Assembly (NCBI GenBank): GCA_944990035.1
Contig: CALYLX010000034.1
Span: forward strand, 124,001-188,000
Source of the DNA: Clitopilus passeckerianus
Lineage: Eukaryota; Basidiomycota; Agaricomycetes; Agaricales; Entolomataceae
Direction: 5' to 3'
Length of the DNA stretch: 64,000 nucleotides
The notes under the pieces: model-generated
What the model was told of the DNA's origin: nothing
Seen by the model: the letters and a program-made list of their open reading frames with translations, nothing else
The model's database searches: none
Translations under genes and position numbers: made by a program
In this document: piece after piece, positions 24,041 to 52,623 of the stretch
Position numbering within the stretch: position 1 is the stretch's first letter
Layout of the letters: every line of letters begins with the position of its first letter

Positions 24041-26380
24041 ATGACTTCCCTGTACGGACCTGTACCAGGCCATAGTATAGGGTTGAGGGCCAGTGGGCCG
24101 ACCCACATCCCTCAAAACTTGGCATACACACTGCATTCCCTGGATTCTACACCTACATCGGTCTCCTGTAGTAACGGGGGCATTTTGTATCAACGTTTTC
24201 ATGGACAATGTCCTCCCAAGCTCGTAATCGGGCTACCAGGAGATATCTACTTAGACACTTCCCCCAGCTCTCCGGCCTTATATCTTCGGCGTACCGATAG
24301 GTGGGAGCTCATCCAAAGCATAACACCTCTGGGGAACTCATCTATACGTCACCCCACTTGCAATGACTTCATTCTCACCTTTCGCGCATCCCAATGGCCG
24401 TTCTGGATTCGCGACACAGAATCAAAGTCACCCGTATCTGAAAGTACGAGCTCTACGTTGAGCCCTGAAGCTACGAACTCCTCTCAGAGCGCTAAAGCAG
24501 CTTCCGAAAAGAAAATGTCGACGACACCTCCTAAAACAAGTACGTCATCAGATACCTCGATCTCTTTTATGCCAAGCTCAAACGTTAATTTTTCAGAGAA
24601 GAGGAAGCATGCAGGAGACCACTCACAGCCAAGGAAGGTCCCCAAGGCCCACCATACCGCGTCCAAACAGCCCACACCCGACCCCCATACTAAATCGAAG
24701 CTCAAGAAGCCGAAAACGCCGAAGTCAAAGGTCGCGCCATATCCCCTCCCAGTCGTGAAGAATCGCGCGAAATCCCATAAATACTACTGGGACATCGTCC
24801 CACCTGCGGATGACTGTGGCACCCCGGGTGATTTCTTCTTTTTGATGTCGCCCGATGGGAGCCCGCCAAGGGCATACGTTAGGAACGCCTATTGGGATGA
24901 GATACCCGATAACCTCGACAAGCTTCGCACAAAACCGATCTGGAACTCTGAGAAAGCCGAACTTGCCCTGAGTATAACACCTGGAGGCGTAGCATGGCTT
25001 TCTCCTTCGACATGTACCCCGCTCAAGGCGAGCGCGTACACCGTATCCGACTGGCTGATGCAGCTTCTGGGGAAGACGCCAGTCCAACCGAGAGGCGGAA
25101 TCCTCAAATCTTCTCACCCCGAAGTCCATAAACAAGCTGCTGAGCCGGTGGCTATTGGAGCTAAAGTCACCAACGCTACGACAATGGCTAACGCGGAAAG
25201 CTTGGAGAAGTATCGCCGCTTAGAGGCGGAGGTAGCCAACTTGAGACGGGAGCTTCAGCAACTTCGAGCTTGCAACAATCCGGTCAAGACATCAGTTAGC
25301 GTGGGCACGGAGGCTGATTCGTCAAAACCAGCTCTCAAGTGGGACAGAGGCGTGCAGGTTGCTTTGGTCAAGGATGCACCACCAAAGGTATCAGCAAGCG
25401 TGGGTCGGGATATCGAGTATTCCTCTGAAATCACTCAGACCTTCATCCCATCGACGATCTCGACCGGTGTGGGTCCGGTTGTCGGGTATTCATCTCAGAC
25501 AACACAGACAATGTCTGTGCTGACGAGCTCGAAGGGTGTGGGCACCGAGGTGGCGTGCGAGGGGGCCCAGAAGAGAACTCAGGCGATCCAAACGGATGTG
25601 CCTTATCCAGTGCGAGGTGAGTAGCACTTCTCCGATGATAACTGTCCGATTACTAAATAAGTCTTCGGTTATAGAATCAGATGGGGTCTCATGCAAGACC
25701 TGCCGTGCTTGTGGAAACAAACGGAGCGATCAAGTACCAATCAGTAAGCCCAGCCTTCTCTACAGCATTTGTATGGGACGTTCCATGATAAGAATTCGTT
25801 GCGGCTAAAACGTCTCGTAGCGTATAGAAAGAGCCGATTGAGGAACGAGATCACCGAACCTCCCGGACCTTCCAATAGGCGAAACGACGTCAAGAGCTGC
25901 ATCTCAGAGTCGTCGAATCCATCTCTGCCCACGAATGATACTTCACAAATCACTTGTGGAGGTAAGGCAACACACCCGCAAGATGTGCAGGCTCACGGTA
26001 CGCTCTCCTCAGTGCTGCAGCCTCTGAACCACGCTTACTCTCTACAGATTCGAATGTTGGAACGTCGGATGTTCATGATAGCTTGGCAGAGAGAGATCTC
26101 AACATATTCTTCCGACACTTTAGAGAAACTGGGACACGTCGGTGCCGCTTTTGCATGTACGCCACTCGGACACACTCGGCTGTAAACAAACTAACCAAGC
26201 TATAGGCACGTAGTTACTCCTCCGCGCCTCACAGAATTTCCCGCAACTATCACCACTGAGCAGCTCCGAGATCATTGCAAAGAAGCGCACAAGGAATTCT
26301 GGATTGCTTTAGGGAAGATGTCGGAACGAAAGGTGCAGGAAATGCACGAGAAATTTGAAAAGCTGGATTCTCGTCAGTGA
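24041..26380 (+). CDS. Unnamed family member A: double GDIY module, coiled coil, C-x2-C/H-x4-H finger
   Basis: Exons 24041-25616, 25675-25743, 25821-25997, 26048-26156 and 26206-26380 join in frame to 701 aa. I recognise no named domain. Residues about 62-110 hold module 1 (GLPGDIYLDTSPSSPALYLRR, then W and HPTCNDFILTF). Lys/Pro/Ser-rich linker about 130-235. Module 2 about 255-320 (GTPGDFFFLMSPD, AYVRNAYWDEIPDNL, LALSITPGG). Then DWLMQLLG, a coiled coil YRRLEAEVANLRRELQQLRA (about 388-407), and a repetitive tail with four V-G-x-x ... TQT units. An additional C-x2-C-x2-C (CKTCRAC) sits about residue 531. The C-terminus has RCRFCMH ... LRDHCKEAHKEFWIALGKMS, a likely C2H2-type zinc finger. The intron directly after CRFC is phase 2, as in the paralogues. 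Function unknown; the finger suggests nucleic-acid or protein binding. Confidence 0.75.
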
Positions 26381-26916
26381 ACCGTAATTGAGTCAGGGCT
26401 TGGTACTAATTGATCAGCAATATCGGCTTATTTGGGGCTTGCGACTGTTATTAAGCTGTAGTTTATTATGCTATTTATTGAACTAATTTTATTTTTGTTG
26501 TTGTTAGTGAAAATCACGAGCGCCAAACTGATTGACCCGTTCTTGAATGTTGAAACATTGACGCGTCAATTAGTTCGACGCGCCTGGATACGATGGCATT
26601 GTTTGGCAGTAGTTTGCTTCTCCTCTGCACGGCCACATTTTTGCTGACCATTTGCCGCTTACGTTTCGGGCCTGTTATTGCTTCCATGCCCGCCTTTCCA
26701 AGGCTTTCTTGCTCCTTTCGCTCCAAATCAACAGGGCTTGACAATCGTCAAGCATCCAAATATTGAGTATCGATGTCGCGGACCGACCATGGTGGGAGAA
26801 ATTCCCCAGAAGACATGTTGCCAATTCAGTTGGCAAGGATATAAAATGACGAAACCAAGAAAGAACCCACCTTGGAGATTTTGCCCCACACCAAGACCTA
26901 GCTTCAGCCATTCACA
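26381..26916. other. Intergenic between family member A and P450
   Basis: About 540 bp. Contains two ACGCG-type sites (GACGCGTCAATTAG and TTCGACGCGCC, 26561-26584), AT-rich 3' UTR and the P450 promoter. No gene supported. Confidence 0.45.
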
Positions 26917-29063
26917 ATGTCGATCGTACGCACCATAGGGGGCACTGATATCGTGCTCTACTCTGTGGCAGGTTTTCTCTGTTGGAGAATCCTGAGGGCG
27001 ACCCTCAGCAAGGACAGAGGGCCGGTCATGCCCAAACTTCGTGGGCCAGCCAGCAAGAGTTTGCTCTTCGGTCTCAGTCGGTTTATCGCGAATCACCCCG
27101 ACACTGTTGCCCTCCATGAAGAATGGGCAGAGGAGTATGGGCCAGCCTATGCCGTTGCTGGACCCTTCGGGTCGAACAAGATCGTGGTTACGGACCCTAA
27201 GGCTGTTACACATTTCTACGTGAAGGACTATACGTACGTGCAGCCGCCGCTCTCAAGGACATATATTGAGAAGATGGTAAGCCAATCGTTCGCTCAAACT
27301 TCCCTCATGAATGCTCACGAAGTCTTCATTAGTTTGGTAAAGGTATTATATGGGCTCAAGGTGATGCTCACCGAAGGTTTGTCGTCCAACGGCAAGCTCT
27401 CAGGGTTAAGTGTCTCACTAGGATTTTAGGCAGCGCAAGGCCATGTCTCCGGCTTTCAGCAACGCAGCCATCAGGCGGCTCACATCTGTATTCTTCGACT
27501 CATCGTACAAAGTCGGTGTTGCCTATCCTCTCGCTCACATACCCAACACTGACTTCCGTCCTAGTTGAAGATTCACTGGGATAGCATCCTAGAATCCGGA
27601 AAGGATGGCACCTCGATCATCGAGGTCCAGCACTGGATGAACAGCATCTCGTGAGTACATTCTTTCCAGAGATCCAGACCTTAGCCAACAAGCCGTAGTA
27701 TGGACTCCATCGGCATCGCAGGCTTCGGACACGACTTCCAGTCTCTGGACGGCAAGTACTCCGCTGTGGTGGACATGTTCGACTCCATGAACTCCACCCA
27801 AACCGGCGTCTGGTCGTCCATGGTCTTCATTCTTGGACCGTTTATCCCTTTCCTGGCCCATCTTCCGACCAAGGCCAGTAGGTTGTTCACGAAAATGCGA
27901 GTCACGACCAGCGATATCGCGGATGACCTCCTAAAAAGAACGAGGGAGGAGACAGGGAGTACGCAGGAGTCACTGCAGGAGAAGTCAGTCATTGGGCTAT
28001 TGAGTATGTTTTCAGTGCTATTAGAGACAAGGCGGTGTTAACACTCGTTATAGTCAAGTCGGAATCGCAAGATGCACAGTTCCAGATGACGCACGAGGAG
28101 ATTGTTGCGCAGATTGTAAGTATTCTCGCCATTACCCGGGTGTGATGAGGAATAAACATCCGTCGTCTCAGAATGTCATGCTTCTCGCCGGCTATGAAAC
28201 TACTTCAAGTGGGTATCAACTAGTGTTCATCCGGAGCTGACGTTGATCTCGTCCACGTATAGTTTCTCTAACAGTAAGCATGGTCCACCACATTCTCTGA
28301 AAGTCCATTCACCCCATTGTTAGTGGGCCCTCATCGAGCTCTCAAATCACCAAGATAAGCAGCAACGGTTGCGTGAAGAGTTGTTGGAATTCGGCGGAAC
28401 ATCCGATCCCACATACGAAAACCTATCAACATCTCTACCCTACCTGGATGCTGTAATCCACGAAATACTGCGTCTGCATTCTCCAGTGCACGAAACCGTC
28501 CGCTACGTAAACACCTCCCCATTCATTCATTTCCATTCGCTCACCATCGTTAATTTTTCTAGACGAACGAAGACGATGTAATCCCCTTCTCGACTCCGGT
28601 CGTGACGAAGGACGGAGTGCCGATCAACAGCCTCCCCGTCAAGAAGGGCACTTCCGTCCTTGTTCCCATCCGTTCAATCCACAGATCAGAGAGCTTCTGG
28701 GGACCTGATGCGAAGGAATTCAGGCCTGAAAGGTGGCTCGACAGTGTTGACACATCTGCGAAAGAACTTCAGGGACATCGTCATCTGCTTACCTTTGGGG
28801 ACGGTCCGAGGATTTGTTTGGGCCGTGCTTTTGCTTTGACTGAATTCAAGGTATTTCGTCTCTTACGACAGGCATTGAAGGCATGGCTAATAGTTCATCC
28901 TGCGCAGGCTGCTTTGAGCGTGTTGATTAGGAGCCATTCGTTCGAACTGCCGGATGGCCCCAAGACGGTAATTGAGAAGTACCCTTCGCCGATTCTTGCG
29001 AGGCCAAAAGTTGCTGGGCAGGATGGGCCGAAGGTCCCGTTGAGGGCTAAGAGAGTACATTAG
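26917..29063 (+). CDS. Cytochrome P450 monooxygenase (microsomal), many introns
   Basis: Haem-thiolate monooxygenase, anchored in the ER by an N-terminal segment (DIVLYSVAGFLCWRIL, residues about 11-26). After splicing I read, in order: KLRGPASKSLLFG, YVQPPLSRTYIEKMFGKGIIWAQGDAHRRQRKAMSPAFS (C-helix WxxxR region; the exon junctions give WAQGDAHRRQRK), the I-helix oxygen-binding AGYETTS, the K-helix EILR of ExxR, and the haem loop FGDGPRICLGRAFA with its cysteine ligand. The C-terminus is RPKVAGQDGPKVPLRAKRVH. At least eight short GT-AG introns. Length (about 530 aa) and motifs are complete. The P450 at 55-57 kb shares the C-terminal block and is probably the same family. Substrate unknown. 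Confidence 0.9.
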
Positions 29064-29652
29064 TTATCGTGTATTGTTGAATTTGAATCCGAATTGACTC
29101 TGTCTGAACACCATGCTAATCTCCAGCGATGGAGAGATGTCCCACATTCTTCACGGTCACTACTAGGCCCTCAAGCCGTTCTGAACGGTTGGACTTTCGC
29201 TTAATTGCAGTATGGACGCTTGCATTCGACCTGTTAGTATCGCAATCGAAATGAAAACGTCCCTTGATAGCAGAACACCGGCGGAATCTGAACCTATTTT
29301 ATTTATTAAATTCTAGCGTCGGCAGTTTTTATATCCTTCTGCATCATGGGACTCCCACGGGGACGCAATTTTTCTATCTCTGAGCAAAACCTGCATTTCA
29401 TAGACTAGCCTGCGCTATCCGTATCCTGAGCACAAGAGCGAAGTCCCTGTAATGACCACTGTCGCGGTAAGGTGACATTGTCCTCAAACATCCCAAGTCC
29501 TTTGATGGAATTTGAATTAACCTCGTACATTTCGAATGTCAAGCTTAAGACAGGGAGTACCATAGGTTGCTTAAAAGGACCACGGCTGGATTGACCATCC
29601 TCATCCTTCAAGGACCTCAATCACTACAACTTCATACTTCCTTCTTCGCACA
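29064..29652. other. Intergenic, no supported gene
   Basis: About 590 bp between the P450 stop and a small secreted protein gene. No conserved frame or repeat seen. The last 100 bp are the likely promoter and 5' UTR of the next gene. Confidence 0.45.
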
Positions 29653-30026
29653 ATGCTCTTCAAATCATTCCTCTCAACTGTCCTCTTCACAGTTGCAGTC
29701 TCTGCATCCGTAATCTACATACAACGGCGAGACGGTTTTGGCCAATTCTCAACACAGCACATCCCACCATAAACAAGGCGCACTGGACAATTACTGCGGC
29801 ACTTACGGCGACCCATGCGATCGCGACGATCTTTGCTGCCCTGGATTAAGCTGCGACCTGAACGTACGTTTCTTCCTTTTCCATGTGTATAATCGGCGCT
29901 CTGAGGCAGAATCACGCCCGACAGAACTACGAATGTCGTTTCAAAAGCAACAAAATTGCTGCAGCTGCCTACAATGCGCTGAGGAAGCACCATGACCAGG
30001 ATTCGTCGATATTCTACGCCGAATGA
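29653..30026 (+). CDS. Small secreted cysteine-rich protein with knottin-like spacing; frame break after signal peptide
   Basis: The N-terminal frame MLFKSFLSTVLFTVAVSAS is a clean signal peptide. A second frame gives a cysteine-rich domain with the spacing C-x6-C-x5-CC-x4-C-x11-C (starts YCGTYGDPC), joined across a good intron (about 29863-29910) to a C-terminal tail ending at 30026. The pattern with an adjacent CC pair is that of inhibitor cystine knot folds, known in many secreted mini-proteins including antimicrobials and inhibitors; the activity here is unknown. The signal peptide and domain are in different frames: a normal intron cannot join them (only a 22-nt GT-AG interval fits), so either a frameshift has killed the gene, an unusual intron is used, or there is a base error. 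Confidence 0.5.
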
Positions 30027-30567
30027 GGGATGCACCGTAGCCCCAGCAATGATTGCTGTGAGCCTTTTGAATGTGACCACAGCGTGAGTTCTATTCGCAT
30101 TCGATTCCAGAAAACTTTGAATCTGGGCTGGGAGCTGAATCGGGTTTTCTTTGATATGGAGGTATTTGTGATTAAGTAGGTCAACGAAGATCAGGACATA
30201 AGAGATTGGCAAGTAATTGGAGAATTTCCGCTTGTGTTTCTCTGTGTATACATATGATATCAAACAATGTGTTCCTAGACGGGGAAGCAAATGTTGGTGT
30301 CCGAGCCGTTTGGGTGTTTTTTCAAGATTGTACCCAATGCCCGTTGGAGGCCATCACTCATCGGCCACATAGTTTTAGATCGAATACAACTGGATGAGTT
30401 TTTACACTTAGAGGTTGGGCGAGGATGGTAATCGAAAGTATCTTCCGGGACTGAGAAACGGCGCCAAATCTCGAGGCTGGAGTTCACATCGTTGATTACG
30501 TCAGATTTCGGGCCAACAAGCTCGGAGTCATCATGAATCGGCCCGACGTCAACATCTACCATCTCCC
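30027..30567. other. Intergenic, no supported gene
   Basis: About 540 bp between the small secreted protein and RQC1. Open frames on the minus strand at 30275-30577 overlap the RQC1 start and look fortuitous. Nothing else seen. Confidence 0.4.
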
Positions 30568-33511
30568 ATGCCACCACGACTGAACAAACGGCAGCAACGA
30601 GAACTCGAAGAGCTTGAGAGCCTTGGGGCTAGTCAAGCGCTAGAAGCTAGCCAGGAGGAAGCCTCAAGCGATGAAGAGGCTCCTGTTTCAGCGACGAAGG
30701 CTTCCGCATTCTCAAATGTACGCAGCACGGATCCTCCGAGGTCGAATTTCAAACTGATCTTTGCCTGCAACCAGTTTCTAGCCACTCAGGAGATCGATGA
30801 TGAGAACGAAGACAATGGCGACGAGGAGGACGGGTCAGTGAAGCCATCATCTAAGTCTCGCAAGGTCAGCTCGCTAATCTTAGTCCTTTCGCCATTTTAC
30901 AGAGGTTGATCGTTTTACAGAAAAAGAAAAAGAAGAAGGCCACTGCTTCAGCTACTGAACCTGCGACCCCAGCGGTGCCGACTCCTCCACCAGAGCCCGC
31001 TGTAACAAAGGAAGCTCCTGTGACTACATCTACACCCACAGCCTCGAAAGCTGAGAGGAAAGCTGCCAAGAAAGCCCGAGCAAAAGAGAAAAAGACTGGA
31101 GGAGACGAGATCGAACAAGCCCTCGCCGAGCTTTCCGTAAAGTACGTACTTCCTACCTCCTTCCTCCTTCCAAATTCTTACTTACCCTCGCGCTCTCTGT
31201 CAAGGTACCACTCCCTCCAACACTCCTCCACATCCTCATCAACCTCGGCATCCTCAAGTACCCTCGGCTCCCTCCTCTCCGTCTCCACCGCCCACCTCGA
31301 CCCCGAATCCGAAATGCGTAAATTCTTCGGATCCAAAGTCATCGCTGCGTCCAAATCGTCCGGATCTGGTGGGTCCACTTCAGCAGGTGCGGCGAGGAGG
31401 GCAGGTGCTGCTCAACGGTCCAATCTGACTAAACCACAGCCGACGTGGTGGAGCGCGAGTCAGAGGGAGGGATTATCAATACGGAGCTTGACCAGCGAGG
31501 AGGTAGAGGAGAAGCAGAGGAAACATGGGTGGGACGAGGCAGGGCCAGGGGAGAAATGGTGGACGGTGGAGTATAGTCAGGGGTACAAGAGTATGACGAA
31601 GGGGTTCATTGCTGCTGTTATGTCTGGACGTACGTCTCCTCTTCCCTCCTCCCCTCCCTCCTCTCCCTGATCTAATCTGATCTAATCCTCTCCCCATAGA
31701 CCCCGAAGCCCTATGGGAAGTCCAGCGCCGCCTCCCCTGGCACGCGGACAACCTCCTACAACTCGCCGAGATCTACCGCCACCGCGAAGAACACGCACAA
31801 GCCGTCGATTTCGTGGATCGCGCGATATTCACATACGAGCGTGCTTTTATTGGGGCGTTTAATTTTACGAGTGGGGTGAATAGGTTGGATTTTGATAGGG
31901 TGGAGAATAGGCCGTTTTATTTGGCGGTGCATAGGCAAGTTTCGTACGTTCTTTTTTCTTCACGCTATCGGTATCCTTTTTGTTGAATACATTCGCATGT
32001 AGGGACCTCCAACGAAGGGGATGCGTACGCACCGCGTTCGAGTTTGCGAAACTCCTCTATTCCATGGATCCTTGGGTCGATCCGCATGGGGCCGTGCATC
32101 ATCTCGAGATTCTGGCGCTCAAGTCTGGGAACGGTCGGTGGCTGCTTGAGTTGTGGGATTATTTCGCGAAGAGGCCGCAGGAGGATGATATGCTTAATCC
32201 GGCTATTCTGCCTGGGTTCATGTATGCGAGGGCGTTGGGGTTGAAGATATTGGAGGATGCGAAGGGAGATTCGGTCTGTACTTTTTTTTACACCAGATCT
32301 GGAAGAGGCGGGAAGCTGATTGGAAGGGGATGTATAGGATCATGAGAAGAGTACAGCGGCTTTGAAGGATGCTGTTAGATCCTATCCTTCGGTTGTCCCT
32401 CTGCTTGCGGATAAGATTGATGTCACGCTGCCAGCTGTGATAGCTGGACATCCAGACTTTAGGATTGAGACTGATTCGAGGTATGCTCCTCATGACTCTT
32501 TCATGCCTATACCTTCTGATCTTAGTTTTGAAAGGTCACTCTCCGAAAGCGTCGGTGTCCTCCACCTACTCTCACACATGTACGCCCTCCGCTCAGGCGG
32601 CATCTGGAAAGAATCCGATCATTCAAAATGGTTCTCCTCCACAATCCAATCTCTTTCCCTCCCTTCTCCACTCCCAACCACACCTCAAAAACGTGCACTC
32701 CTCTCTCTTCTCGAAAGAAACGAGAACATAAGATCCTCGATATACCGGCACGTCGTCGTCCTCGAATCAACCCACAAACGCCTCTTCTCCTTCATCCCCT
32801 CCCCCATCCTCTCCCAAGCCAAATCCTCCCTCGCCTGCGACCCCCTCCCTCCCCCACCATCAACCTGCATATCCTCATACGACCCGCACTACTTCGCACA
32901 AGTCCCCGACCTACCCACCCTCCAACCCAGGGGGACAAGGGGCCAGAGAAGACAGCAGGCGGCGTTGGACGCGAGGATGTTGGCGCAGATTTTACCAAAT
33001 GCGGACGCGAGGAGGCAGTTGGAGGAGATGATTGAGGGGAATGAGGAGTTGAGGGAACAGTTTCCGGGTGGGTTGAGGGAGGTGTTTGAGAGGTTGGGTG
33101 TGGAGGGGTTGGAGGATGTTATGTTGGCTGGGGCTGCTGGGGTTGGGTTGGGCGGTGTGGCTAGGAGAGGTGGTGGAGGAGGGATGGTGCCGATGGGAGT
33201 ACCGGGTGATGAGATGCCGGGTGGGTTTGAGGGCGATATGAGGGGGGGAGGAGATGCTTTTGATGAGGATAGGGGAGGTGACGGGAATGAAGACGAGGAG
33301 GAGGATGAAGATGAGGAAGAGGTTTCGGTCAGTTATTTGTTGCTCCTCATATCGGGTTACCATTTCACTGATGATTCACATTCAGCTTCTCCCGCGGATT
33401 CTCAGAAACTTTGTTGGAAGGTTATGGGGTGGTCCAGCACCAGTAGACGAGTCCACTGATGAAGACGATGATGACGAGGACAATGTATCTGAGCATGGAG
33501 GTGTTGATTGA
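30568..33511 (+). CDS. RQC1: Ribosome quality control subunit RQC1 / TCF25 homologue
   Basis: RQC1 works with Ltn1 on stalled 60S subunits to ubiquitylate and extract nascent chains; TCF25 is the animal name. Start MPPRLNKRQQRELEELESLG, acidic Ser/Glu region, then basic KKKKKKATA and KAERKAAKKARAKEKK. The conserved core runs from STAHLDPESEMRKFFGSKV through PTWWSASQREGLSI, WWTVEYSQGYKSMTKGFI, WHADNLLQLAEIYRHREEHAQA, AFNFTSGVNRLDFDRVENRPFY, RRGCVRTAFEFAKLLYSMDP and WDYFAKRPQEDDM to HADSRYA-type blocks. The C-terminus LLPRILRNFVGRLWG is spliced across an intron at about 33330-33385 and ends with an acidic tail. About seven introns. Translated extent and motif order match the family; a Gly/acidic insert near residue 660 is fungus-specific. 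Confidence 0.9.
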
Positions 33512-33764
33512 CAAAACGAAAGGAGTGGATAGCAACGACCGATAAATACGGATGTAATTCTAGATCGGTCCGGCGTCTTCACTGGAACAAGGGAAATATT
33601 ACGAATACGAGGATACAACAAATGCCTAATCTACAAAGTTCCAGACTCTTCCGAGGGCGTACAGATGCGTATAGTGTAGGTCGTGCATGAATAAATAAAT
33701 AAAATCTTATGAAAGCAATCGAAAGTAAAGGCGTCCATCATGAAATCCTAGGTCCCGATCACAC

Positions 33765-35362
33765 TCAAAGAGAAGCCATCACAGGCTCGTTGTTAAGACT
33801 CTTGCTCTTACCCTGCCGTCCCGAACTTGAGCGAACCTGTGGTGCAATCGCCACCAAGGCAGGCGTAGACGGCTCAAACATCCCAACGTCCCCCGAATTC
33901 GCATTCGCAGTTCCTTGGTTCTTCCCTCCCCTTCCCTCCACCCTCTTCACAAACTCTCCCCAGCAAGCCCTCTCATCCGTTCCCATCTTCTCAAACTCTT
34001 CTCTCAGTGATCCTTCGGCTTTCCTCCACAGCCCCCGGTGGCGACATACGGTGCTCTTGACGTACCGACTCCCGAAAACGCGCTCGAAGGCCAGTTTTTG
34101 GGTCATGGAGGAGCCGCTACCGGGTGGTGGGCTGCGTACGAGAGCGTCCATCGCGTCGAATCCAGTGGAGATTTCGGAGACGCTGTAGTCGTTTGGCCAG
34201 CGTTTTAGTGGTGGGTGGGGATGATAAGGGATTGGGGCCGGCGTGGTATTGGTTGGGGGCACAGCATTTATACTGGAAGAATTGGGATGTGGGCATGCTT
34301 TCGATCTTGATGGTGCAGGTGTTGTAGACGAGGAGGCAGGCGTAGGTGTCTGTTGTGTGCGTGCAGGTGGGTTTGGAGGTGGCGGTGCGGGGTAATACCG
34401 TTGTGGAGGGATTGATGGGGAGGCAGACGTCAAGGACAAGGAACCGACCGCTGGAGGGGATGACACTATCGCAGGTGGTGGCAAGGTCTGTTGCAACGCT
34501 AATGGGGTGTGCGCCAGCGACGTCGTCGGCGAACCCGAGGATGTTTGGTCTGTACTGTAGAATTCCGTGATATGGACCTTCGTGGGAGGGCCTACAGGTG
34601 AACTGTCCGGAAGAGGCCGCTTGAGCGGTATTCGCGACTCAAACTTCATGGGGGCTTCTAGTTTGACCCCTGCCTGCTTCAGGACCTCCTCGCTCATCCC
34701 TGGGCATTCAGTTTCGTCTAAACCTTCGAGCAGAGACTTGCGGATCCTATATAGCAGCCGCTGCTGCTTGGACACAAGCCTGACGCTCTCAATAGTGTGC
34801 TGTTCCCAAGTGCAGGATTGGAGATCATAGGTGTCGATGTAGGAGTGGCCAAGTCCAAGGTCCTTCACCACAGCTGGGATTTGCGCCAACTGGAAGTATG
34901 GAAATGTAGTGTTGGTATGCTGTATTCGTAGCGGGTCCCTGTGTGCCTATCGAGAGAATATATTAGGATCCCATTTTCAATCCGGTAACTTGACCGGTAT
35001 TCAACGAAGAAGGAATCGTCCATCTGACTTACTTTATACCAGATCACCAGAGTGATTGAACGGTTGTAGTCTTCCAATTGTCGTTGCATTTCCTTGTCAA
35101 GCTCAGTAACCAGCATTCTGGCAGGTCCATCGACAGGTGGTTGAAGCGCCGTTAGATCGTTGTTACAAGCAGCAGTCGTCTGAGCGAAGTTCTGCTGCAG
35201 TTGATCTAACGGTAGCGCCGAAGAGACCGCCTTTATGCTCAATGCTCCTTGGAGGGAGTTAGAGACAGAGGGTATCTGTCGAGGGGACAGAACCGAGGGC
35301 GGGCTCAAATGGTTTACGTAGACCCCTGCAGCTTGTAGCGATGAGGCGCCTGTCCCATGCAT
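33765..35362 (-). CDS. Hypothetical protein, 2 exons, Agaricomycete-type, unrecognised
   Basis: Exons 35362-35033 and 34946-33765 join in frame (WYK then AHRDPLRIQ) to 503 aa. No named domain. The N-terminal 110 residues have a helical stretch ending LDKEMQRQLEDYNRSITLVIWYK. The middle is Pro/Ser/Thr-rich and disordered. The C-terminal third has an ordered block YSVSEISTGFDAMDAL and QKLAFERVFGSRYVKSTVCRHRGLWRKAEGS, with conserved-looking Cys/Trp/His. This block would be the thing to search with. Convergent with RQC1, 250 bp apart. Confidence 0.7.
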
Positions 35363-36358
35363 GGTAGTGATCTAATGTATGACATTGAATTTACTGCAAG
35401 GAACAACGCAGACGACTGCAACCGGTAAAGAAATACCTTGGACGAGCTAGGACCTCAACCTTTTGAAGAATGGAGGTCGTCGTGGACCTGCAAGGACCCT
35501 ACGTCCACGGACGCCAGTGAGCGGGAGAGGACTCGAAATTGCAGGCGGACCTCGGTACAGCCCGAGTCAGGTGCTCCGGCTATTGCCGCACCGGTAAACG
35601 AGCTTGCATGGACCCACGTTTGCGCCTGGCCTCACACGGCCAACATCATCCATAGAAGTTCTGTGGAAATCTATGTCGTGTCAATCCTAGATTAGGATGG
35701 ATTCCCACATGGCCCTGTCAGTTATCACGTTCATAGCCGTATAGATTCACTCACGAACGCCACCAAACACCTGACGGACCATGCGCTAATCGGACCAAGT
35801 ACTGGGGACCGGTCAACGTTCTGAAAAGAAAAGCGCTAATAGCATGCTGTGGGCATCCCGTGTATCCCCTCCTCTCTTCGCTGGAAGCCGTGTAACGAAA
35901 ATAATCCTTCGAAGGCGCCATTTACCTGACGGGCCGCAATTGAAATCGTGACGGATCTACTTCTGATAATCTTCGCGTAGCTTAAATCAGTGGATGCCAT
36001 GCATTCAGCTCATTGCGTCAGACTCCTATCAGGCCTGCCATGCTACCGACAAATACCCCGCAATTATCCTCTCTCGCCCACGATCATATGAGATCTTGCC
36101 TGATGTGCGCTTGACTGTGTGGGGAATGTGGAGCTACTGTCAACCCCGATAGCATGCCAGACCCATGCCGTCTGGCGCTTCACGACCAGCGGACCGCGTA
36201 CTCACCTCCAAAGGCTGGGACGCGATCGTCCAAGAAGCAAAGAAAAATGACGGGCTCCACCTAGTTTTTGCGAGTGGAATATATAAAGCGCAAAATTCGC
36301 TGTATGGCCTAGCAACGCTACTAGTTGCGTCAATTTTGCCCCTTGCCTCGCCTGAATC
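35363..36358. other. Intergenic upstream of the LPMO pair
   Basis: About 1 kb with no conserved frame. Presumably holds the promoters of the hypothetical gene (minus) and the first LPMO (plus). The last 60 bp before the ATG are the 5' UTR with a TATATAAAG box at about 36280. Confidence 0.45.
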
Positions 36359-40586: not shown

Positions 40587-40644
40587 TTCAGAAACGATGT
40601 GATTAAGAAAAGGAAAAAGGGTCGCAGGTCCAGAAATTGGTTGA

Positions 40645-40656
40645 CCCTAACCCTAA
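40645..40656. promoter_or_regulatory. Telobox-like double TTAGGG repeat in the HAP5 promoter
   Basis: CCCTAACCCTAA on the plus strand, i.e. two TTAGGG units read on the strand of the gene, 59 bp before its start codon. In fungi such sites bind Tbf1/Teb1-type Myb factors. Could also be a chance 12-mer. Confidence 0.5.
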
Positions 40657-40918
40657 GAGCTGCCGGATCAATGGCAGCCCGTCACCGGTCCTTCATTCAG
40701 GAACGCTGCACAGCCGTCATTGCCATATGGACTTGGAACCTTTTTGGTACTCAAAATGCGTCATAAGAAAACTTCGGATTCTGTAGGCCTCGGAACTCAG
40801 TTCGTTCCAGTCGGATGGGTATCTTATTATATTACAATACTACAAAGGTTTGCATGATATTATGATTACAAGAATGGTATCTTTTGTGAGCTTCAGCGTG
40901 ATGGGTTTTGAATTGAAT

Positions 40919-41713
40919 TTAGAGGTTGTGTTGCTGGATGTGCCGCATAATCGTCAACGACGTCAGTATCTCTGGACGATCATTACGCGGTTAGTTCTGG
41001 AACAAATCAGTGGCAAAACAAGCATGCTCACCGAGAGTCAAGTGAGAGTAGTTCTTCATGATGGTCAGGTAGTTGCCAGACACCGTCGGGTCATAGGATC
41101 GAGCACCAGGAGCCTTCACGATGAGGTGGGCGACAAGGATGTTCTCTGGTGATGTGCACTCGAGGGCAACCCCTAATTAGCTTGATGCACACTAGTTTGA
41201 GCCGAAGAGTCAGAGCTCACCGTCCATTCATGCTCCTCAGTCACCTGGTGAGCCCACGTGTATTCCCTCCCATCCGACGCCGTGAATTTCCTGAGAAACG
41301 ATCTACCGTCGAGCAACGCAAGATGAAAGCCCCGCAAAATGCAGATGAGCAGCGTATCCTAGAAACGGCAAAGATGACGTGGACGCTTACGAGCCGAAGA
41401 GTGACGTTTTCCGGAGGTACCGGTTCATGGGCACGACGAAGTTGTGGTTTGGCCGTTGCCGAACATAGGTGAGGTTTCCTAACTTTTCGTCTGGGGTGAA
41501 CTCCATTATGACAGTTGGCTGAGAAGTGAAAGGCTGCGTGTCCCGGCGCCGTGAAGAACGAATGTTCATTGGGTATATCATCGTTGTAGTTTGGTTTTGC
41601 ACTCGTGCCACTCGGAAGAATATGCGGTCATACAACTCGTCCCAGTCAGTGGCCGTATTACTTCCCGTACGATCCTCCAGCACGTAGTCGGGGGTGTTAT
41701 CATATTGTGTCAT
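40919..41713 (-). CDS. DUF6593-like protein, 4 exons
   Basis: Exon 1 from 41713 to 41391 encodes MTQYDNTPDYVLEDRTGSN and a beta-rich region RIFFRVARV, VIMEFTPDEKLGNLTY, VPMNRYLRKTSLFGS. A phase-2 intron leads to KFTASDGREYTWAHQ, then CTSPENILVAHLIVKAPG and, after a last intron, EILTSLTIMRHIQQHNL to the stop at 40919. The F-T-x-x-DGR-x-Y-x-W block followed by a C-terminal LEI(x)2S-L-T-I helix is the pattern I associate with DUF6593, a family expanded in mushroom-forming fungi with unknown function. The third exon's acceptor is chosen by frame (phase 0). No signal peptide or membrane segment. Confidence 0.6.
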
Positions 41714-43234
41714 CGGGAATCTCGAGAAAAACGACGTGGTCTAAAGGGCAGAAAGGACACTCGTAGGGTGACGAACAAATTTGGGCAAGGCTCTGACCGC
41801 CCCGAACGTTGTTCTTAAAAGACTTTATAGGCTCAGGGACCATCGGGCGGAAACAAACAGAAGATGATCGAACTCCACTTCTGATGTAGCCTTTCCAGAA
41901 ATGGTTCCGAGCCGAACTGGCATCGTTGGAGAAAACGCCGTATCAAATAGTGAATTTGGTGGACGCCCTTACGGCACTACAGCCAGGTCCCGTCACTGAG
42001 CTGAGGCCTCGAGCTCTCGAGCATGGACGACGCACCAGGTGTGTGGGCGTTTTAAATACAAGGTTCCATTTAGCGCTGGGGAGCCAGGTGCTTGCCGCTG
42101 CGGTGTTACTTTGACTCGACCTCACTCGATCAAGATGGGCGTAAAGATAAGGGATAAGGAGAACAATGTGGGATTTTTTGACAAGCCCTTCGTTTCGCGA
42201 ATTTAATGACTCACGAGATAAAGAAAGGTTTTCGTCGGAATCCATCAGGAAGCAATAGGCAGAGAAATGTACAATTCACCTCGCACCAATCGCGCCCGCC
42301 TCAAAAGTTTCCCTGAACTTGCGTGATGGCAGCACATAGAACGCAATCATGTGGTGAGGTGGATCCATACCACCTGCCTTCTGCCGACGGTACAGTCAAA
42401 CCTTGAATGGGATCTTGTGATGTACTCTTCTTTCTCAAGTTTTCTGACTATCGCACGCCCAGAACATTCATCTTCGACATGCTCCGCAGATATCTTGATA
42501 ATCCCCTGCCTAAGCCATTATAATCTAGTCGGAGCTGGGAGCCCATCTCTGGACTAATTCAGTGAATCTCGGCTACGGCGGGGCTCGCAGTCGTTAGAGA
42601 ATCTGGTGAGTTTGCGACTGTGCAAGGGAACCCCGACGGTTCCAGTCAGGTGAGGAGCTGTGACACCCTCGCAGCGTGTACACCGCTTCAGTTTGAAGGT
42701 ACCCACACCGTCCAGATGTCGAGTCTTGTTCGACTTGAATCTGGGCCACCATCTTCAATGCAGTGTGTCCAGTCAGATCGTGTCAGATGATAGGCGCCTT
42801 GCACGACATCGTGATGCAATTGACACGTATTGGTGTGCTGCCGTTCAAGAGATTTTGCGTTGCTTCCAATTCAGACGAGAGACGATCGATTGATCGCTAA
42901 TCTGCTGCTAGCTTCGACCAATGCGGATATGCATGGCGGCATCTCAGTTAGAACGCACCACACCATAAGAAGAATGTCCAAAGATCATAACTTTGATTCG
43001 AGATTGGTGTCGCATCTGGCAAAGATGGCGCGATCTCCATTGGAGCAACTCTCTTTCAATTATAGAACATACCCCGTTTCGAAAGCATTTGGTGGCAAAC
43101 CACGTTTGATTGCCAAGTATCGCCGGGGAAACCGGTTTTACACCTAAAGTACAAGACTAAACTATACATGAGTAACGGCAGAAGACGTCGGTGACTAGGG
43201 CTTACCTGAGCCAACTCTAACCATGACGTGCTCA
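41714..43234. other. 1.5-kb intergenic region, no supported gene
   Basis: Between the start of the DUF6593-like gene and the stop of RVB1. Frames of 60-105 codons occur on both strands, none with recognisable motifs or plausible splice partners. May contain a rapidly evolving or non-coding gene that I cannot see. Confidence 0.4.
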
Positions 43235-45000
<1,766 letters not shown>

Positions 45001-45240
45001 CGTGCAGTTGACGAGGGTGAGTGGTCCAACATTTTCCAAATAATTATTTGATGTTTGTAAAATGAAAATAATTATTACAAGCCAGTCCATACATAGCAAT
45101 ATCCTCCCACGACCCTTCGTCCTGTCTGCAACAGATGTGCCCAGGAAGGCTTCAACTCAACGTTCAACGTGAGCTACCTTTAGCCAACTACAGGCAGATG
45201 CGTACGCCGAATAATCAACCATTTCAATTAAATTCTGAAT

Positions 45241-46833
45241 CTAAGTCTTTCCTTCTACAAATCCTCGCTCTATCGCCTCCACTTCCTCGTCAGTCATCGC
45301 CAGCAACCTCTTCCAGAATGCCTTATGTTCTGCCTTCGCATGGAACACCAAAGCGTCCTCAGCCGTGTCTGGGGTAGGATCTCTAGCCATTGCTTAGTGT
45401 GTCTATAAGATTGCTCAGTTTTTCTGTCAACGCCGTGAACCTGAGAGATACTGACATGCAGATACGGCAAATAAATTGACCAGTTCCTCCTACTATGTGA
45501 AAGAATATTTTTGCCACACGATGATTCTCTGAGATTCGGAGTTCTGCAATGGATATAGATGAACTCCTGCGCGCTGTAAAGGATATCATGCTTAAACGGC
45601 TAGGATAACGCAACCACAACGAGTACTTTACTTACGGCTCTGTGTGTGCTGACTTCGTGACTTGCATGCTTCCTGCTCCTCCTCAAAAGCAGTCGTTATC
45701 GGCCGTGAATGTGTCTGAGTATTGATCGTGCCCTCTTCAGGAACAGAATTCTGGCCCATCCGATTTGGTGTCATCGTCCTGGTCTCTGACAACTCCTCCC
45801 TCTCTTTTTCATCTACGTGCATTATCCCTTGGACATCGTCTTCATTTTCGGGGAACGCACTCGAAGTTGATGCTTCCGTGTGCGCTGCTTGAACTCCGAT
45901 TTCAGACGTAGGTCTATCCTCGGTCTGATTGGCCTTTGGGCACGTATGAACTTTTGTTGCAATGGCGACAGACGATTTAGGGGGCGAACGGGAGCATGGG
46001 TTTTGCGGGGGTATTGACGCATCCGTTGCGATTGCTTTTGAGGTGCTTGCTACAGCTGGAGTGCCCACACCGCAAGACGACGTATACACAGGCGTAGTTT
46101 CAATCGCCTTCGACTCCCGAGTAGTGGGACGGGATATCTGCTTCCTCAGCTCCCGTATTTTCAACTCGAGTTCGGTGCATCTTGCGTGTAACTTAACGTT
46201 CTCCGTCGCTGAAAGTTGAGTAAACCATTCCGACGCTGTTGCTATCGGCTGGTAGGGCACCAGGCTATCAGGGGAAGTCCAATTTGTGGGTACCCAGATA
46301 TTGGCTGAACTTGAATGACGAGTGATGTTCAGCATGAAGTCTGGTATTGACGGGTGCAAGATCGGCGAACTACGAATCCTTGTAAGATCAGATGGCAACT
46401 CTGTCCACAAAATTGATTTGAAAAAGGCCTTTGTGATTTCATTCGTGGATGACATGAGAAAGAAGATGTCTCCATTTTTGCCCTGTGTAACCTCTGGGAT
46501 CGTAGAATCCCAGAAAAATGCGGTATCTGTGAGCTGCACCATACTTGCTGCATGACGGCGAGACCGACGTCCATGTCCGACATAGACAGAGGAAGCTGCC
46601 CCTCCGTGGGTCGGATGTGGAAGGAATCTATAGTCTGTCGGTCCAGAAGTTCCCTGGTTCTCCCAGAGGTCCGGGCCTCGGATATAATGCGCTTCAGTGA
46701 CTGCATCAATATCGACGTAGATGTCCCCGGCAGCTCCAAGGTCTGCAGCAGGCTGGCCGCGTCCATAGAATTGCGTATACGGAATGTCGCGGCAGGTACA
46801 TTGAATCTGATTCAAGACGTGCCCAGCGGACAT
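45241..46833 (-). CDS. Unnamed family member B (intact): double GDIY module and C-x2-C/H-x4-H finger
   Basis: Exons 46833-45636, 45573-45456 and 45382-45241 join in frame to 485 aa. Module 1: YTQFYGRG, LGAAGDIYVDIDAVTEAHYIRG, HPTHGG. Module 2: GKNGDIFFLMSSTNE, AFFKSILWTELPSDL, FMLNITRHSS, then SEWFTQL and the coiled coil CTELELKIRELRKQI (about 225-240). The tail is Ser/Thr/Pro-rich with short V-G/I-A-T repeats. The C-terminal exons give VAKIFFHIVGGTGQFICRIC, a phase-2 intron, then ALVFHAKAEHKAFWKRLLAMTDEEVE. The acceptor at 45383 was chosen over a nearer one because it keeps the finger in frame. Compared with A it is shorter between modules. Function unknown. Confidence 0.72.
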
Positions 46834-47145
46834 TCTTACCGATTTACAGGGTATTCGTGATGGAAAATGGGAAGCATCACTTAAACAGATCCAGGCTGAG
46901 GTCCAACACCTTTATACCCGCGCTCGGCAATGGTGAAGTAGGGATTCGAGCCTGGGCCGACTCGGAGGTAAACACAGGGAGCAGAGTGTGATGAGGAAAG
47001 CTCAGTCTAGGATCATCTAAGCTTAGTAATTTATTGAAACGCTCGAATGATGTTTCTCAATCATACCTGGCACTCTGACATGCGAACGTTCTCAGCAAAG
47101 TGGCGAAATATGCAACTTATTGAATGGAATGGCATGTAAGTACTT
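46834..47145. other. Intergenic between family members B and C
   Basis: About 310 bp, promoter of B and the far end of C. No feature seen. Confidence 0.4.
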
Positions 47146-49040
47146 TCAAGTAGTCGGGGCTGCAGTCGTAGCCCGCTGAGCTATTGCGTCTACTTCATCG
47201 TCAGTCATCGCAAAATCCTCTTCCAATATTCCTCGTGCTCCGACTTTGCATGCCCAGACAAAACTACCCTACCCGTTCCCGCAGAAAACGACATGATGCG
47301 TCGGTGAGTGTGTCTATAAACCCGGTCAGTCTGCGGGAAACAGCTTCCAGAATCCAGGTTGAAATACTCGCATGCAATTACGGCATATCAGTTGACCAGT
47401 TTCTTCGTGTTTGTGAATGAAAAACTTTGCCACACGATCTTTGGTCGAATCTTGGGGCCCCGTAGTGGGCAGGCTACTGACAACCACTGAAGGTTTATCT
47501 GTGTTGGGCACTGGTTAAGCAAGATGATGACCTGCGAGGAAGTTGTTGCACGTGTTCCAATGGCTACCGAATAGGTATTGAATGGCAGCGCTGGAGTTTC
47601 CTCGGTTTCAACCCCCGTAGATCTAGTGGCTACATTCCCGATTCCGACGCCAACCAACGACGGTTCAATTGGTTTGGCCTGAACTGCCTTTGTTGAACGG
47701 CTAGTTGAAGAAAGCATTGGCCTTTTCAGATCCTGTATTTCTTGCTCCGATCGAAGACATCGGGATCGTAGCTCAGCATTCTCGGCTTCAAGACTCTTCT
47801 TTGGTGTAGAGGCTATTTCAATGGAATGACCGGGGGAGAAATGGTGCTTAAGCTGAAATGGGGAGGTTTCTCCAGAAGCCGAGCAAACCAATCTGAGGCA
47901 GTCTGAATCGCCGAGATTGTGAGAACTTCTCCAAATGCCTTTGAGTCACCCAAATTGAACACGGGGGTGAATCTTCGGTGATGTTCAACATGAACTTTGG
48001 TTTTTCCGGATGCCAGATTCGATCACCCTTATGAATGAGGGTGAGGTCGGTCGGAAGAGCTGTCCATTCGTCGGCTTTGAAATAGACATTCTGGATTTCA
48101 TTTGCGGAGGAGAGAGGGAAGAAAAATGTCGCCATAGACACCCTGGTATTCTCTGGTATCCAGAAGTCATGATAGTATGCTGATTTACGGCAGATTTCCC
48201 GCATCACTAATGTTGTCTCGTGGAAAGGCACTGTATAAGCCCATGCGAATACCGAGAACATCTAGTCGTCGCTTTTGTCTTGGCCGTAGATGCAGCAGGG
48301 GATTTCCCAGCGGAAGCGTTGGCAGGAGGTGGTGGAGCAGGTGAGGGCTTGGGCCTCTTTCTTGTCACATTTTCGGGCCTTTGATGCCTTCGTTTCGGAG
48401 CCGCTTGGGAGGTTTCTGTCGGTTCCGGGACAGAGTCTAGGTGTAGATGCACGTATTCTGTTAGCGAACTGCCAGACAAAGAGTCTAACATCTGTGTGAG
48501 CTGACAGTCAAAGTAATTAAAACGAGAATTCATCTTACATGTCCCCCCAACGTCCTCAGTGGTCCAGCTCGGCCCACACGTCTTATCGAACGAGAGTATG
48601 AATTTATCATTCACCGGATGCACGATGTTACCCTGAACAGGGTCCGCCTGCTTCTGCCAGTAATACGGAAAGCGGATGTATGGTGCCCGACCAGGTGGTG
48701 TACTTTCGATGTAGATATCACCCGGGGCTCCGAACCCTGCTGTCGGTATGCCGCGTCCATAAAACTGCTCGTATGTGATCTCGTTGCATGCACGCTTTAA
48801 TTGACTATCCACAGTGGCTTCAGTAGCATCGAAGAACGAGGTTGCCCACGTGCGATAAGATGAGGGAATAGAAGGTAAAGCCCCATTGCTCTCAATTCGA
48901 GCAGTCGTGGTACTCATTGGCTGTCCGTGCAGCATTTGCATGAGGCGAAGTTGGTTTAAGATGTGGGCATACAAGGTGCGGAGTCGCGAGGTAGCCAATA
49001 GCTCAAAGCATTCAGATTGGACCTGTGGAGAGCTGGGCAA
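47146..49040 (-). pseudogene. Unnamed family member C, decayed by several frameshifts
   Basis: Starts MPSSPQVQSECFELLATSR at 49040. Module 1 is intact: EQFYGRGIPTAGFGAPGDIYIEST, APYIRFPYYWQKQ, HPVNDKFILSF. The Lys/Pro linker ends at a stop near 48207. Module 2 is split between frames: GVYGDIF in one frame, FFPLSSANEIQNVYFKADEWTALPTDL in another, resolved by losing one T from a T-run near 48118. A third break lies near 47890-47930 (ASDWFARLLEKPP against the following frame). The tail has coiled-coil AELRSRCLRSEQEIQDLK. The finger LICRNC ... GHAKSEHEEYWKR survives, but the last exon ends early (KRILR-stop at 47215) while the frame of the homologous end (DDEVDAIAQ) runs to 47146. The intron after CRNC begins with GC instead of GT. 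Confidence 0.75.
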
Positions 49041-49299
49041 AATGAACAGAAGCTAGCGGGGTTTGGCAAGTCACAAAAACGTATTCAGTGACCGCGACTG
49101 TCACATGTCATTTCTATAATTGGGTATATTATCCCTAAATCCATTCGATTGATGTCAAAAACACTGATTATTATAATATTAGGGATATTAACATAATCCT
49201 ATGCGAGGTTCCATACGACATGAAAGTTGTACAGGAAGGAAATGCAAGTATGGTGTATGTGCATTATGGAGGTCATCGAGGAAATATATCTGGTAGAAT

Positions 49300-49555
49300 A
49301 CTATAGAGAAATTGCATGAATGCTGAACCTGCGAGCCCATCACACGCCCTCTCTCTTCACCATACTCAAACCTGTTTCAGAGTCCTCCTGGATCACCTCC
49401 CTCAGCCTCTTCGTCTTCCTCCGATCCATGGACAGATTCTTCAGCGCGAATTTGGGAAGAACATGGATAGAGCTGATGTGCGTGACCGAAAGACCTGCTT
49501 GGCGGGAGAGCACCGTCTTCTCCATCTTTGGTGTCGACAGCGCATCTTATTGAAG
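49300..49555 (-). pseudogene. Duplicated 3' tail of the SAMHD1-like gene
   Basis: The minus-strand frame KMEKTVLSRQAGLSVTHISS ... KTKRLREVIQEDSETG parallels the C-terminus of the SAMHD1-like protein ([18 protein letters not shown] ... [16 protein letters not shown]). The 3' flank also matches: AACCTGCGAGCCCATCAC occurs in both, and the AT-rich DNA at 49080-49300 parallels 52330-52610. There is no upstream part of the gene here. It is the mark of a tandem duplication whose breakpoint lies in the last SAMHD1 exon. Confidence 0.85.
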
Positions 49556-52130
49556 TAGTGTGGATGTATTTTGAAGTCGTCAAGACTCCAGCCTCGAATT
49601 GCTGAACCATTACCTCTACTTCACCATCAGTCATCGATAAAAGCCTCTCCCAAAATTTCTTGTGCTCTGATTTCGCATGTGCAAACAGAACATCCTCTGG
49701 GGTCTCAATACCAAATGCCACAATGGGTCGTTGGGTATGTCTACGAGATTTCTCAATCAGATTGAAATCGCCAGTGATCTGAGATACCGACATGCAAATG
49801 CGGCAAATGAGCCGACGGGTTTCTTGTTGGTCGTGGAAGAGAAACCTTGCGAGACGATCTCTGCCAGAGCCTGAGTTCTTGGTATCATAGTGGGCGACCT
49901 AATGACAGCTACAAAGGGGTCCACCCGATCGATAGACTGGTCAGGTGTGTGGAGTCGCTTCATTCTCCTATTCTGATGCTCTGGCTCGCCTCGTTCCCGA
50001 GATTGCGAAGTGAGTTCAAGCTCCCGGTCGGGGTCATTTCCAATATGGGATTGGATCTCAGCCTGAACGATTTCCCCTTCGGTTTCTGAATCTGGAGCCA
50101 CTGAAGGAACTATAGTCCCCTTGGGGCGTTTCGCATTTGTTCTCGCGGATGCTGGGTCTGACCTTCTTGCCGGGTTTTCTTCATGTAATGGGGTGTGTGG
50201 CAATACCCCCTCAGCAAAATCTCCATTTAACAGCGTTTCAGGGCTTCCTGGGGCAGCATCGGGAGCCATGTCTGTGCAGTATCTTCGTTAGCCTCTGTCC
50301 GCCGATGGAGGGGAGCCATAAATACTGTTTAACGGAGGGAACGACATGGTTCGCCCGACCTTCCCTGATTCCGACGACTGGTGTGTCTTGTGTGATGGTC
50401 GTTCTGGATTGGTTCGATCCATGACCACGCCTTCTTCGGAGTTCTGGAGTTCTAAAGACTGTTATGAGTACGATGGTACACTTTTATCGAAGCCAAACTT
50501 ACCTTGAAGGTCGTCAGATCCTATCGCTGGCCCCACCACCCGGGTGAGCGCATTGGCTCGAGTCGGTATCAGAAGTGGTTTGGCGACAACAACTTGCACT
50601 CCAAGCTCAGACGTAGATTTTCCAGCGGTCTGTATGAACTTTGAGGAGGTAAGAAGCGCTGTTCTGATGCTCACCGAAGCCATCGGTGTTGAACAATTAG
50701 AGCTGCAAGGTTGAGTTGGTGTTTCTTCTGTGGCCACTCCCGTGGACGTCCGTAGAACGAAGTCGGTCCCTACGGCTGTCGAGGTGGTACTGGGCGATTC
50801 GACTTGAACCTCTTTGGTTGTATGGTTGGTTGGAGGGGGGATTCGCTTTTTCAGCTCCTGTATCTCGCCTTCCAGCTGGAGACACCGTAGTCGTAACTGA
50901 TCGATCTCTGCCGTTGGAATTGTCTGCGAGGTTGCAGGTACTGCGTTAATCCCTACTCCGTTCGTGGACCGGCTGGCAAGTGCATCATCACTATCGGTTG
51001 ATTTGAGGCGGAATGGCGACGTTTTGAGAAGCTGAGCAAACCATCCTGAGGCGGTCGGGATCGGAGGCGAGGGAGGCAGCCCCTCCAAGCGCTTTTCGCT
51101 GACCCAGACAGAAACTGGATTCGAATCAAAGGTGATGTTCAACAGGAAATTGGGCTTATACGGATGGCGAATCCGATCATTGGTTTTGTGGATTGTCGTC
51201 AGATCCGGGGGCAGCTTCGTTCACTTGTCAGTTTTGAAGAAAACACCTTCGACAGTATTCCTCAGCGAGAGATGGAAGAAGAAGTCTCCGTAAAAGCCTT
51301 TCTTGATATCTGGAATCGCGAAATCGTAAAAGAATGCGGGTTTGGGGCAAGCTTCTCCCCGAGGTCGAGAATTAGTTGGTGTGGGACCTTGAGTTGGCAG
51401 TGCATATGGCCCATCTTGAAAGTGCCAATGCCGACTTCCCAACTTGACCGGTACGACCGTTGGGCTATCACTAGGGACAGGAGAGGGAAGGGACGGCGAC
51501 GGTGCCGGAACTGCGGGAGTATACTTCGGCTTTTTTGCTGGTAATGTCTCTGGATTGCCGCACCGTCGTTTTCTCGCAGTAGGGGTGGCTTCTGGTTGAG
51601 AGTACTCTAAATACTTTTTCAAGTAGCGTGATATCGAAGGACACGACATGGAACCTGGATTTTTGTTAGCGAAAAATCTTGGGAATATATTAAAAGACGG
51701 TACTTTGCAGTTCCGATATCTCCCCAGCCCATGTTAGCCACGTTGGACCATTCTTTTCATCGAAGGAGAGTGCAATCTGGCCATGCACCGGGTGAGAGAT
51801 AGGCCCGTCACCTGTCAGTTTCGCATGCAGCAGTTTCTGCCAGCCTTTCCAGAAGCGGACGTATAGAGCTCGATCTGTAGGTGTTTTATCGATATAGATG
51901 TCTCCCAGGGAGCCGGAAGCACCAGTGGGTATACTGTATCCGTAGTACTGCTTGTATGTGATGTTGGCACTTTCACGTTGAATTTGACTCTCGACTGTAG
52001 TTCCAGCCCCGTCCTAGTACTCTGCCTTGAACGTGCTCGCGAGTGCATTGATATCCGAGTCGGGAGCGCATATAGGCGCACGGAACGTGTAGAATAGCCC
52101 TTGGCTTTGCGACGCTGGATTTATGGTCAT
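49377..52130 (-). pseudogene. Unnamed family member D, decayed; 3' end fused to duplicated SAMHD1 tail
   Basis: From ATG at 52130: module 1 YKQYYGYSIPTG, GSLGDIYIDKTPTDRALYVRF, HPVHGQIALSF. One in-frame TAG at 52014-52016. After an intron (about 51712-51663) comes a Lys/Pro linker, module 2 KKGFYGDFFFHLSLRN, GVFFKTDK then TGA at 51221-51223 where A, B and C have Trp, then TKLPPDL, LLNITFDS, SGWFAQLL and the coiled coil QLRLRCLQLEGEIQELKKRI. The tail has V-G-T repeats. The finger reads RLICRIC, phase-2 intron, IHTQRP and FAHAKSEHKKFWERLLSMTDGEVE. The end (after TTSKYIHTTSIR) runs into the duplicated SAMHD1 tail in a foreign frame and stops at 49377. Two nonsense codons make it a probable pseudogene, unless readthrough or an overlooked intron intervenes. 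Confidence 0.7.
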
Positions 52131-52623
52131 TCTTGAGTCATTCGGTCAGACTTGCTTGTTCAGAAAGCGAACAAACAAATGGTCTTGGAACTACCAGGTT
52201 CCTGCGTTTCAGCGCAGGTAATAGTCCTGATAGGTCGTGCGGGCAGGCAGAAAAGGAGGGTGTACAACGCTTCACGAGAACAGGATAGGGTGTTCGATAA
52301 CTTGAAATGAGCGCGTTGCGGACTGACAATTTTCTGTGACCGCGACGATCACCTGACTTGCCATAAATGGATACATCAAACCTAAATCCGGTCCAAATTA
52401 ATGTCAAAAATATAGTGATTATTAAATGGTATATTAATATAATCCTAGGCGATGTTCTATGTGACTTGAAAATTGTACGTGGAAGTCCGAAGAAGGTGCA
52501 TGTAGGTAACGCAGGAAAGAAATACGGCAGAATGGCATAGAGAAGTTCCAATAAATGCTGGGTCCAGAAAAATGTCCATGTGTAAATGCGAGGATAGAAA
52601 CGAAAAAGTAACCTGCGAGCCCA

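Follow-up and report, generated by a model that had tools for sequence, protein, structure and literature searches.

What kind of protein is encoded by four related loci, here named A to D, that lie in a single 64,000-nt stretch (the window) of contig CALYLX010000034.1 (C34) of the Clitopilus passeckerianus assembly GCA_944990035.1? A stands on the forward strand, and B, C and D are found together on the reverse strand within 45.2-52.1 kb. The four share one layout, which runs from module 1 through a linker, module 2, a W-[FL]-x2-L segment, a short coiled coil and a Ser/Thr-rich tail to a C-terminal finger. The original prediction had described an unnamed family with this layout, and all four members were indeed found at the places it gave. 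Where alleles have to be told apart, the suffix 1 marks the allele in the window and the suffix 2 the allele in the other haplotype (A1, A2, B1, B2, C2, D2).

Family membership and the twin modules

Pfam scans gave no model at cut-off on either the modules or the finger, as had been predicted, supporting A to D as a putative unnamed family beyond Pfam coverage. Weak matches to TBCA_PH, Fumerase, DUF2092, DnaJ_C, EndoU, ribosomal S29 and bZIP coils were put down to chance or to the coiled coil. Searched against the whole genome, A, B, the other-haplotype C and the D finger open reading frame (ORF) returned the four loci and their alleles as family members; all other matches were chance hits to the tail, hits to the 3' end of D's neighbour gene or copies of a dispersed repeat. 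Among the weak tail matches (E 0.05-0.28), ORFs at C34:805883 and C146:405672 show nothing of the family layout, and a third match falls at C35:387905. In the protein database, B and a seven-row alignment found no match, and neither did a control, a 472-aa ORF of the window with a weak F-box-like match, so that the absence of matches is uninformative on the distribution of the family. Open-licence PMC papers, judged by title and start of abstract, gave nothing on it. The spliced models place the finger intron at an identical position and phase in all four members, with a GC donor in C; this is an argument that the layout as a whole was inherited from a common ancestor.

The two modules were aligned separately over both haplotypes. 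In the module 1 alignment (8 rows) 13 columns are invariant, among them those of G-D-I-Y, A-x-Y-x-R, W and H-P; in that of module 2 (7 rows, window D being omitted because its module 2 holds a stop) 12 are, the G-D pair being absent from the C of the window. Comparison of these alignments by hhalign gave P 1.7e-5 over 65 columns, with a probability of 78%. Because the GD motif is present in both modules, the comparison was repeated with the GD columns fixed and the remainder shuffled; the score of 31.05 stood well above the maximum of 17.4 over 60 shuffles. These results bear out the earlier suspicion that the modules are copies of each other, and on profile evidence both are one duplicated, predicted beta module of about 80 residues with the motif GD-[IF]-[YF]. 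In the AlphaFold2 model of A (mean predicted local distance difference test score, pLDDT, 60.6), the linker is disordered and the modules lie mostly at 60-85, with a similar strand order except that one strand of module 1 is replaced by a short helix in module 2. Module 2 of B, modelled alone, was good over its first 40 residues only (pLDDT about 90).

Tail motifs, the finger and a proposed nuclear role

The linker of A, C and D is basic, of a KRxx ... K-x-x-K type, and resembles what we take to be the pattern of a bipartite nuclear localisation signal (NLS), while B has a short GRRSRRH stretch only.

The tails, described in the original prediction as low-complexity, are indeed present in all members, but they are also enriched in short motifs, clearly so in A. 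A published LC8-type motif is [DS]-K-x-[TVI]-Q-[TV]-[DE]-like, according to an excerpt of PMC3078936, and motifs of this type occur in all four tails, two to four in each. One of them, [AV]-I-Q-T-[DEA], is common to A1, B2, C2 and D2, with N-Q-T-E at that place in the B of the window. The core [TVI]Q[TV], which was picked after the sequences had been read, occurs 13 times in the 2762 aa of A, B2, C2 and D2 (11 in tails, two outside), compared with twice in the 5303 aa of 12 hand-picked window ORFs. Shuffling of the tails gave P <1/2000 for A1 and A2 (0 of 2000), 0.015 for B2, 0.047 for C2, 0.13 for D2 and 0.37 for B1. Support for enrichment is thus clear in A and weak in B2 and C2, and the shuffles give none for D2 or B1. 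A regular 12-residue spacing of the motifs was not upheld in a spacing-only test (P 0.06-0.75). The genome itself holds an LC8 gene (one PF01221 match, 100.5 bits).

The finger reads C-R-x-C ... H-x4-H-x2-[FY]-W in all four members, and C18, C21, H23, H45 and H50 are invariant across the five spliced fingers (A1, A2, B2, C2, D2). These five fingers gave no match to Pfam finger models at E up to 10. They share with C2H2 fingers, the BED type being considered, a C-x2-C followed by H-x4-H, a hydrophobic stretch before it and an L-x2-H, but differ in that the two pairs stand about 23-25 residues apart and in an additional His, also invariant, placed two residues beyond the second Cys.

A second look at the modules by VIA-align put the collagen XV/XVIII trimerization domain in the top rows for both, with Z low throughout. 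Based on these features, we tentatively propose that the family may consist of nuclear, oligomer-forming zinc-finger proteins acting as scaffolds or regulators. The twin modules, if of a small trimerizing beta type, would act as self-association units; LC8 dimers would link chains to one another through the tail motifs that they bind, and the finger would contact DNA or a chromatin partner, the oligomer lending it avidity. The modules could instead be monomeric readers of a ligand (phosphopeptide, histone or glycan) within a chromatin or signalling adaptor. We consider this a lesser possibility, given that the collagen rows rank first for both modules, at those low Z values, and that SH2 is not among the 13 matches listed for module 2; a family missing from a VIA-align list is not thereby ruled out.

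Allele states, selection and turnover

The assembly amounts to 64.8 Mb, and a second contig, C36, carries the allelic counterpart in reverse orientation, diverging by about 8% (median 8.2% over 76 windows of 500 bases). Next to B, a TIP49-type exon is present in exactly two copies, one each on C34 and C36, so we take the assembly to contain two haplotypes; the LC8 gene, for its part, was found once only.

The main exon of A is open in both haplotypes, its 3' exons being modelled from the window allele. In the window's B, removal of the conserved 53-nt intron loses the reading frame before H-x4-H is reached; the motif would be retained with a 73-nt intron, whose acceptor lies 20 nt further downstream. 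In the other allele the 53-nt intron preserves the frame. The C of the window shows several frame changes and a tail shortened by about 665 bp. In its allele the main exon is open for 549 codons, and the 5' coding part is interrupted by a dispersed repeat of about 411 bp, which contains the first ATG of the C2 model. The D of the window carries an in-frame stop within module 2, and the spliced model of its allele is open throughout. Decay was rejected as the cause of the frame change between modules 1 and 2 of D, since a 49-nt intron fits instead in the other-haplotype model. The other-haplotype models measure 821 aa (D), 760 aa (C) and 492 aa (B, from its first ATG).

The claim of two intact and two decayed members therefore held in part: C and D are broken in the window, but D is open in its other allele and B is doubtful in the window. 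The apparent decay thus differs between the alleles present in a single assembly, and loss-of-function variation is seen to segregate at C and D, perhaps at B.

The insert in C (C36:204590-205000; L020:590-1000) has further copies on contigs C35 (two, 99%), C136 (97%), C106 (92%) and C98 (78%), the two on C35 lying mutually inverted at 87107-88189. The downstream flank of D (49084-49500) resembles the 3' end of the neighbour gene and the stretch before D (52336-52849) at 71-76% in DNA, with matches at the protein level too, as if a tandem duplication had taken along the end of the neighbour gene.

The original prediction had further called these genes conflict-linked, with rapid birth and death. 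The ratio of nonsynonymous to synonymous substitution rates (dN/dS) between haplotypes was below 1 in 19 of 19 segments (0.14-0.69), lowest in module 2 of B (0.14) and of A (0.15); the three control segments located, of six chosen, gave 0.27, 0.18 and 0.03. Constraint and decay are mixed in these ratios, since the segment of the D finger contains a read-through intron and the window alleles of C and D are pseudogenes. The same four loci stand in the same order in both haplotypes, so that no copy-number turnover is visible between them. Selection and turnover were judged from two haplotypes, which is a small sample.

Conflict or self-recognition genes with rapid turnover are consequently an unlikely reading, which dN/dS below 1 throughout leaves unsupported and from which the most constrained modules and the shared set of loci also detract. 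In its favour are the null alleles at C and D, the tandem arrangement of copies, the presence of an NLR-like, ankyrin-repeat gene at 2.9-5.8 kb of the window, and a synonymous divergence (dS) of 0.47-0.49 in the A tail (25292-25597) and in the linker and module 2 of D (51095-51571), as compared with 0.09-0.31 in the other 16 segments. Divergence over D (10-17%) is modestly raised with respect to the local median.

Equally improbable is a fading family, in which A (and D or B) would still serve in an ordinary role, the others being relics and the resemblances of tail and modules of little meaning. It would account for the broken C and D and the doubtful B of the window, and for C being hit in both haplotypes by different lesions; against it, the other-haplotype models of A, B and D are open, and the modules are constrained. 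On the reading as a nuclear scaffold or regulator, purifying selection acts on the genes as a whole, with null alleles segregating at C, D and perhaps B.

Table 1. Positions in the window of the four members and their parts; splice sites of A are predicted.
Feature	Position	Strand	Basis or remark
Member A, proposed gene, 689 aa, five exons	24041..26380	+	predicted splicing; first ATG at 24041
A introns	near 25617-25674, 25744-25820, 25962-26047, 26157-26205	+	two middle ones uncertain
A module 1	24173..24415	+	alignment, structure model
A basic linker, bipartite-NLS-like (KRKH...RKVPK, KSKLKKPKTPKSK)	24599..24730	+	sequence; NLS pattern as presumed
A module 2	24776..25006	+	alignment, structure model
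A W-x2-L segment (SDWLMQLL)	25046..25069	+	sequence
A coiled coil	25190..25267	+	sequence; sole weak PDB profile matches fall here
A tail, LC8-type motifs GVQV, ITQT, TTQT, AIQTD	25292..25597	+	motif counts
A finger, two exons, CRFC ... HCKEAH-KEFW	26092..26377	+	spliced model
Member B, from first ATG; last-exon frame doubtful in window	45241..46833	-	
B module 1, C-terminal strands not recognisable	46570..46794	-	alignment
B module 2	46285..46521	-	alignment, structure model
B coiled coil	46132..46206	-	sequence
B finger, two exons	45244..45532	-	sequence
Member C, pseudogene in window haplotype	47208..48941	-	
C module 1	48552..48788	-	alignment
C module 2, frame differs from module 1, G-D motif lost	47941..48183	-	alignment
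C finger pieces	47208..47439	-	sequence
Member D, stop at 51221-51223 in window haplotype	49377..52130	-	first ATG at 52130
D module 1	51726..51971	-	alignment
D module 2, interrupted by stop	51095..51340	-	alignment, sequence
D coiled coil	50840..50911	-	sequence
D finger, two exons	49596..49850	-	spliced model

Elsewhere in the window, neighbouring ORFs at 2893-5774 carry NPHP3_N, GPIID_WHD and ankyrin repeats and are NLR-like, and a 531-aa ORF at 9498-11093 (-) appears ankyrin-like. In the stretch around the F-box-like ORF (window 20717-23676; L023:3011-6279 in the other haplotype), the haplotypes fail to align between that ORF and A (22177-23676); in place of the single ORF of the window, the other haplotype carries a related pair, of 480 and 451 aa. 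A 296-aa open frame at the end of the window (62394-63284) has no Pfam match.

Comparison with known systems

The collagen XV/XVIII trimerization domain (PF20010, Collagen_trimer; PDB 3n3f, 3hon, 3hsh) has in common with the modules an LYVR-type strand followed by an aromatic residue, [LA]-x-Y-x-R ... [WF]. Unlike it, the family module is about 30 residues longer, with two more strands, and the family has two modules per chain together with nuclear-type features. At E up to 10, the Pfam matches of the module rows (8 for module 1, 7 for module 2) did not include PF20010; the human domain scores 79 bits. Direct reading of the spliced family sequences found no Gly-X-Y collagen repeats, and a Collagen_trimer search of the genome gave no match, though its search controls gave none either.

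Structure models also matched phage and giant-virus collagen-like and tail proteins at low scores. Phage minor tail proteins (e.g., of Microbacterium phage Cece, UVG35135.1) carry tandem GD-[ILT]-W-[FY]-D modules, which share with the family the order Y/F ... P ... G-D-[IL]-[aromatic] ... aromatic ... W. The module 1 profile aligned with them over 43 columns (P 1.1e-4), scoring 25.0 against a maximum of 15.7 in 100 column shuffles and 14.3 on reversal; with GD anchored, this score fell between the 95th percentile and the maximum (26.7) of 60 shuffles. Module 2 (score 12.4) and collagen XVIII gave no match to the phage modules. Searches of PHROGs gave one weak match each. These likenesses suggest that the modules may belong to the small beta type of collagen XV/XVIII trimerization and of phage-tail and collagen-like proteins. 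A viral or phage-like origin of the module, with fusion to a finger protein of the fungus, is very improbable: what speaks for it, beside the structural matches, is a first-ranked tblastn phage match to a minor tail protein with tandem modules (94% coverage), which at E 3 is not significant, while tblastn of module 2 in phages gave three records with no tail protein among them, IMG/VR viral contigs held no relative confirmed by alignment (the DNA pattern being without any match), and a library of viral proteins alone cannot place viruses nearer than cells.

A more specific form of the nuclear scaffold proposal, which we hold to be rather doubtful, is that the family represents a nuclear branch of the collagen XV/XVIII and phage-tail trimerization module, in which twin modules, coiled coil and LC8 bridges would build a defined nuclear assembly of higher order. 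If true, a collagen/phage-tail module would operate in the nucleus of a fungus, in one protein with an LC8-type tail and a finger not described before, and this would offer a testable route to multivalent nuclear scaffolds. Regardless of mechanism, the analysis describes a family that Pfam misses, with modules that appear to be one domain and with allele-specific decay.

By layout, the nearest analogue is ASCIZ/ATMIN, an LC8-binding zinc-finger transcription factor with several TQT-type motifs in its tail, as an excerpt of PMC5963919 describes it; no homology was found, and it is an analogue, not a relative. Zinc finger and TQT-type tail are common to both. In the same excerpt, ASCIZ has four predicted N-terminal fingers (fly) and 7-11 LC8 sites, whereas the family departs from this order of an N-terminal multi-finger domain followed by an LC8 tail, having a single C-terminal finger and fewer motifs. 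Its twin modules and coiled coil further set it apart from ASCIZ.
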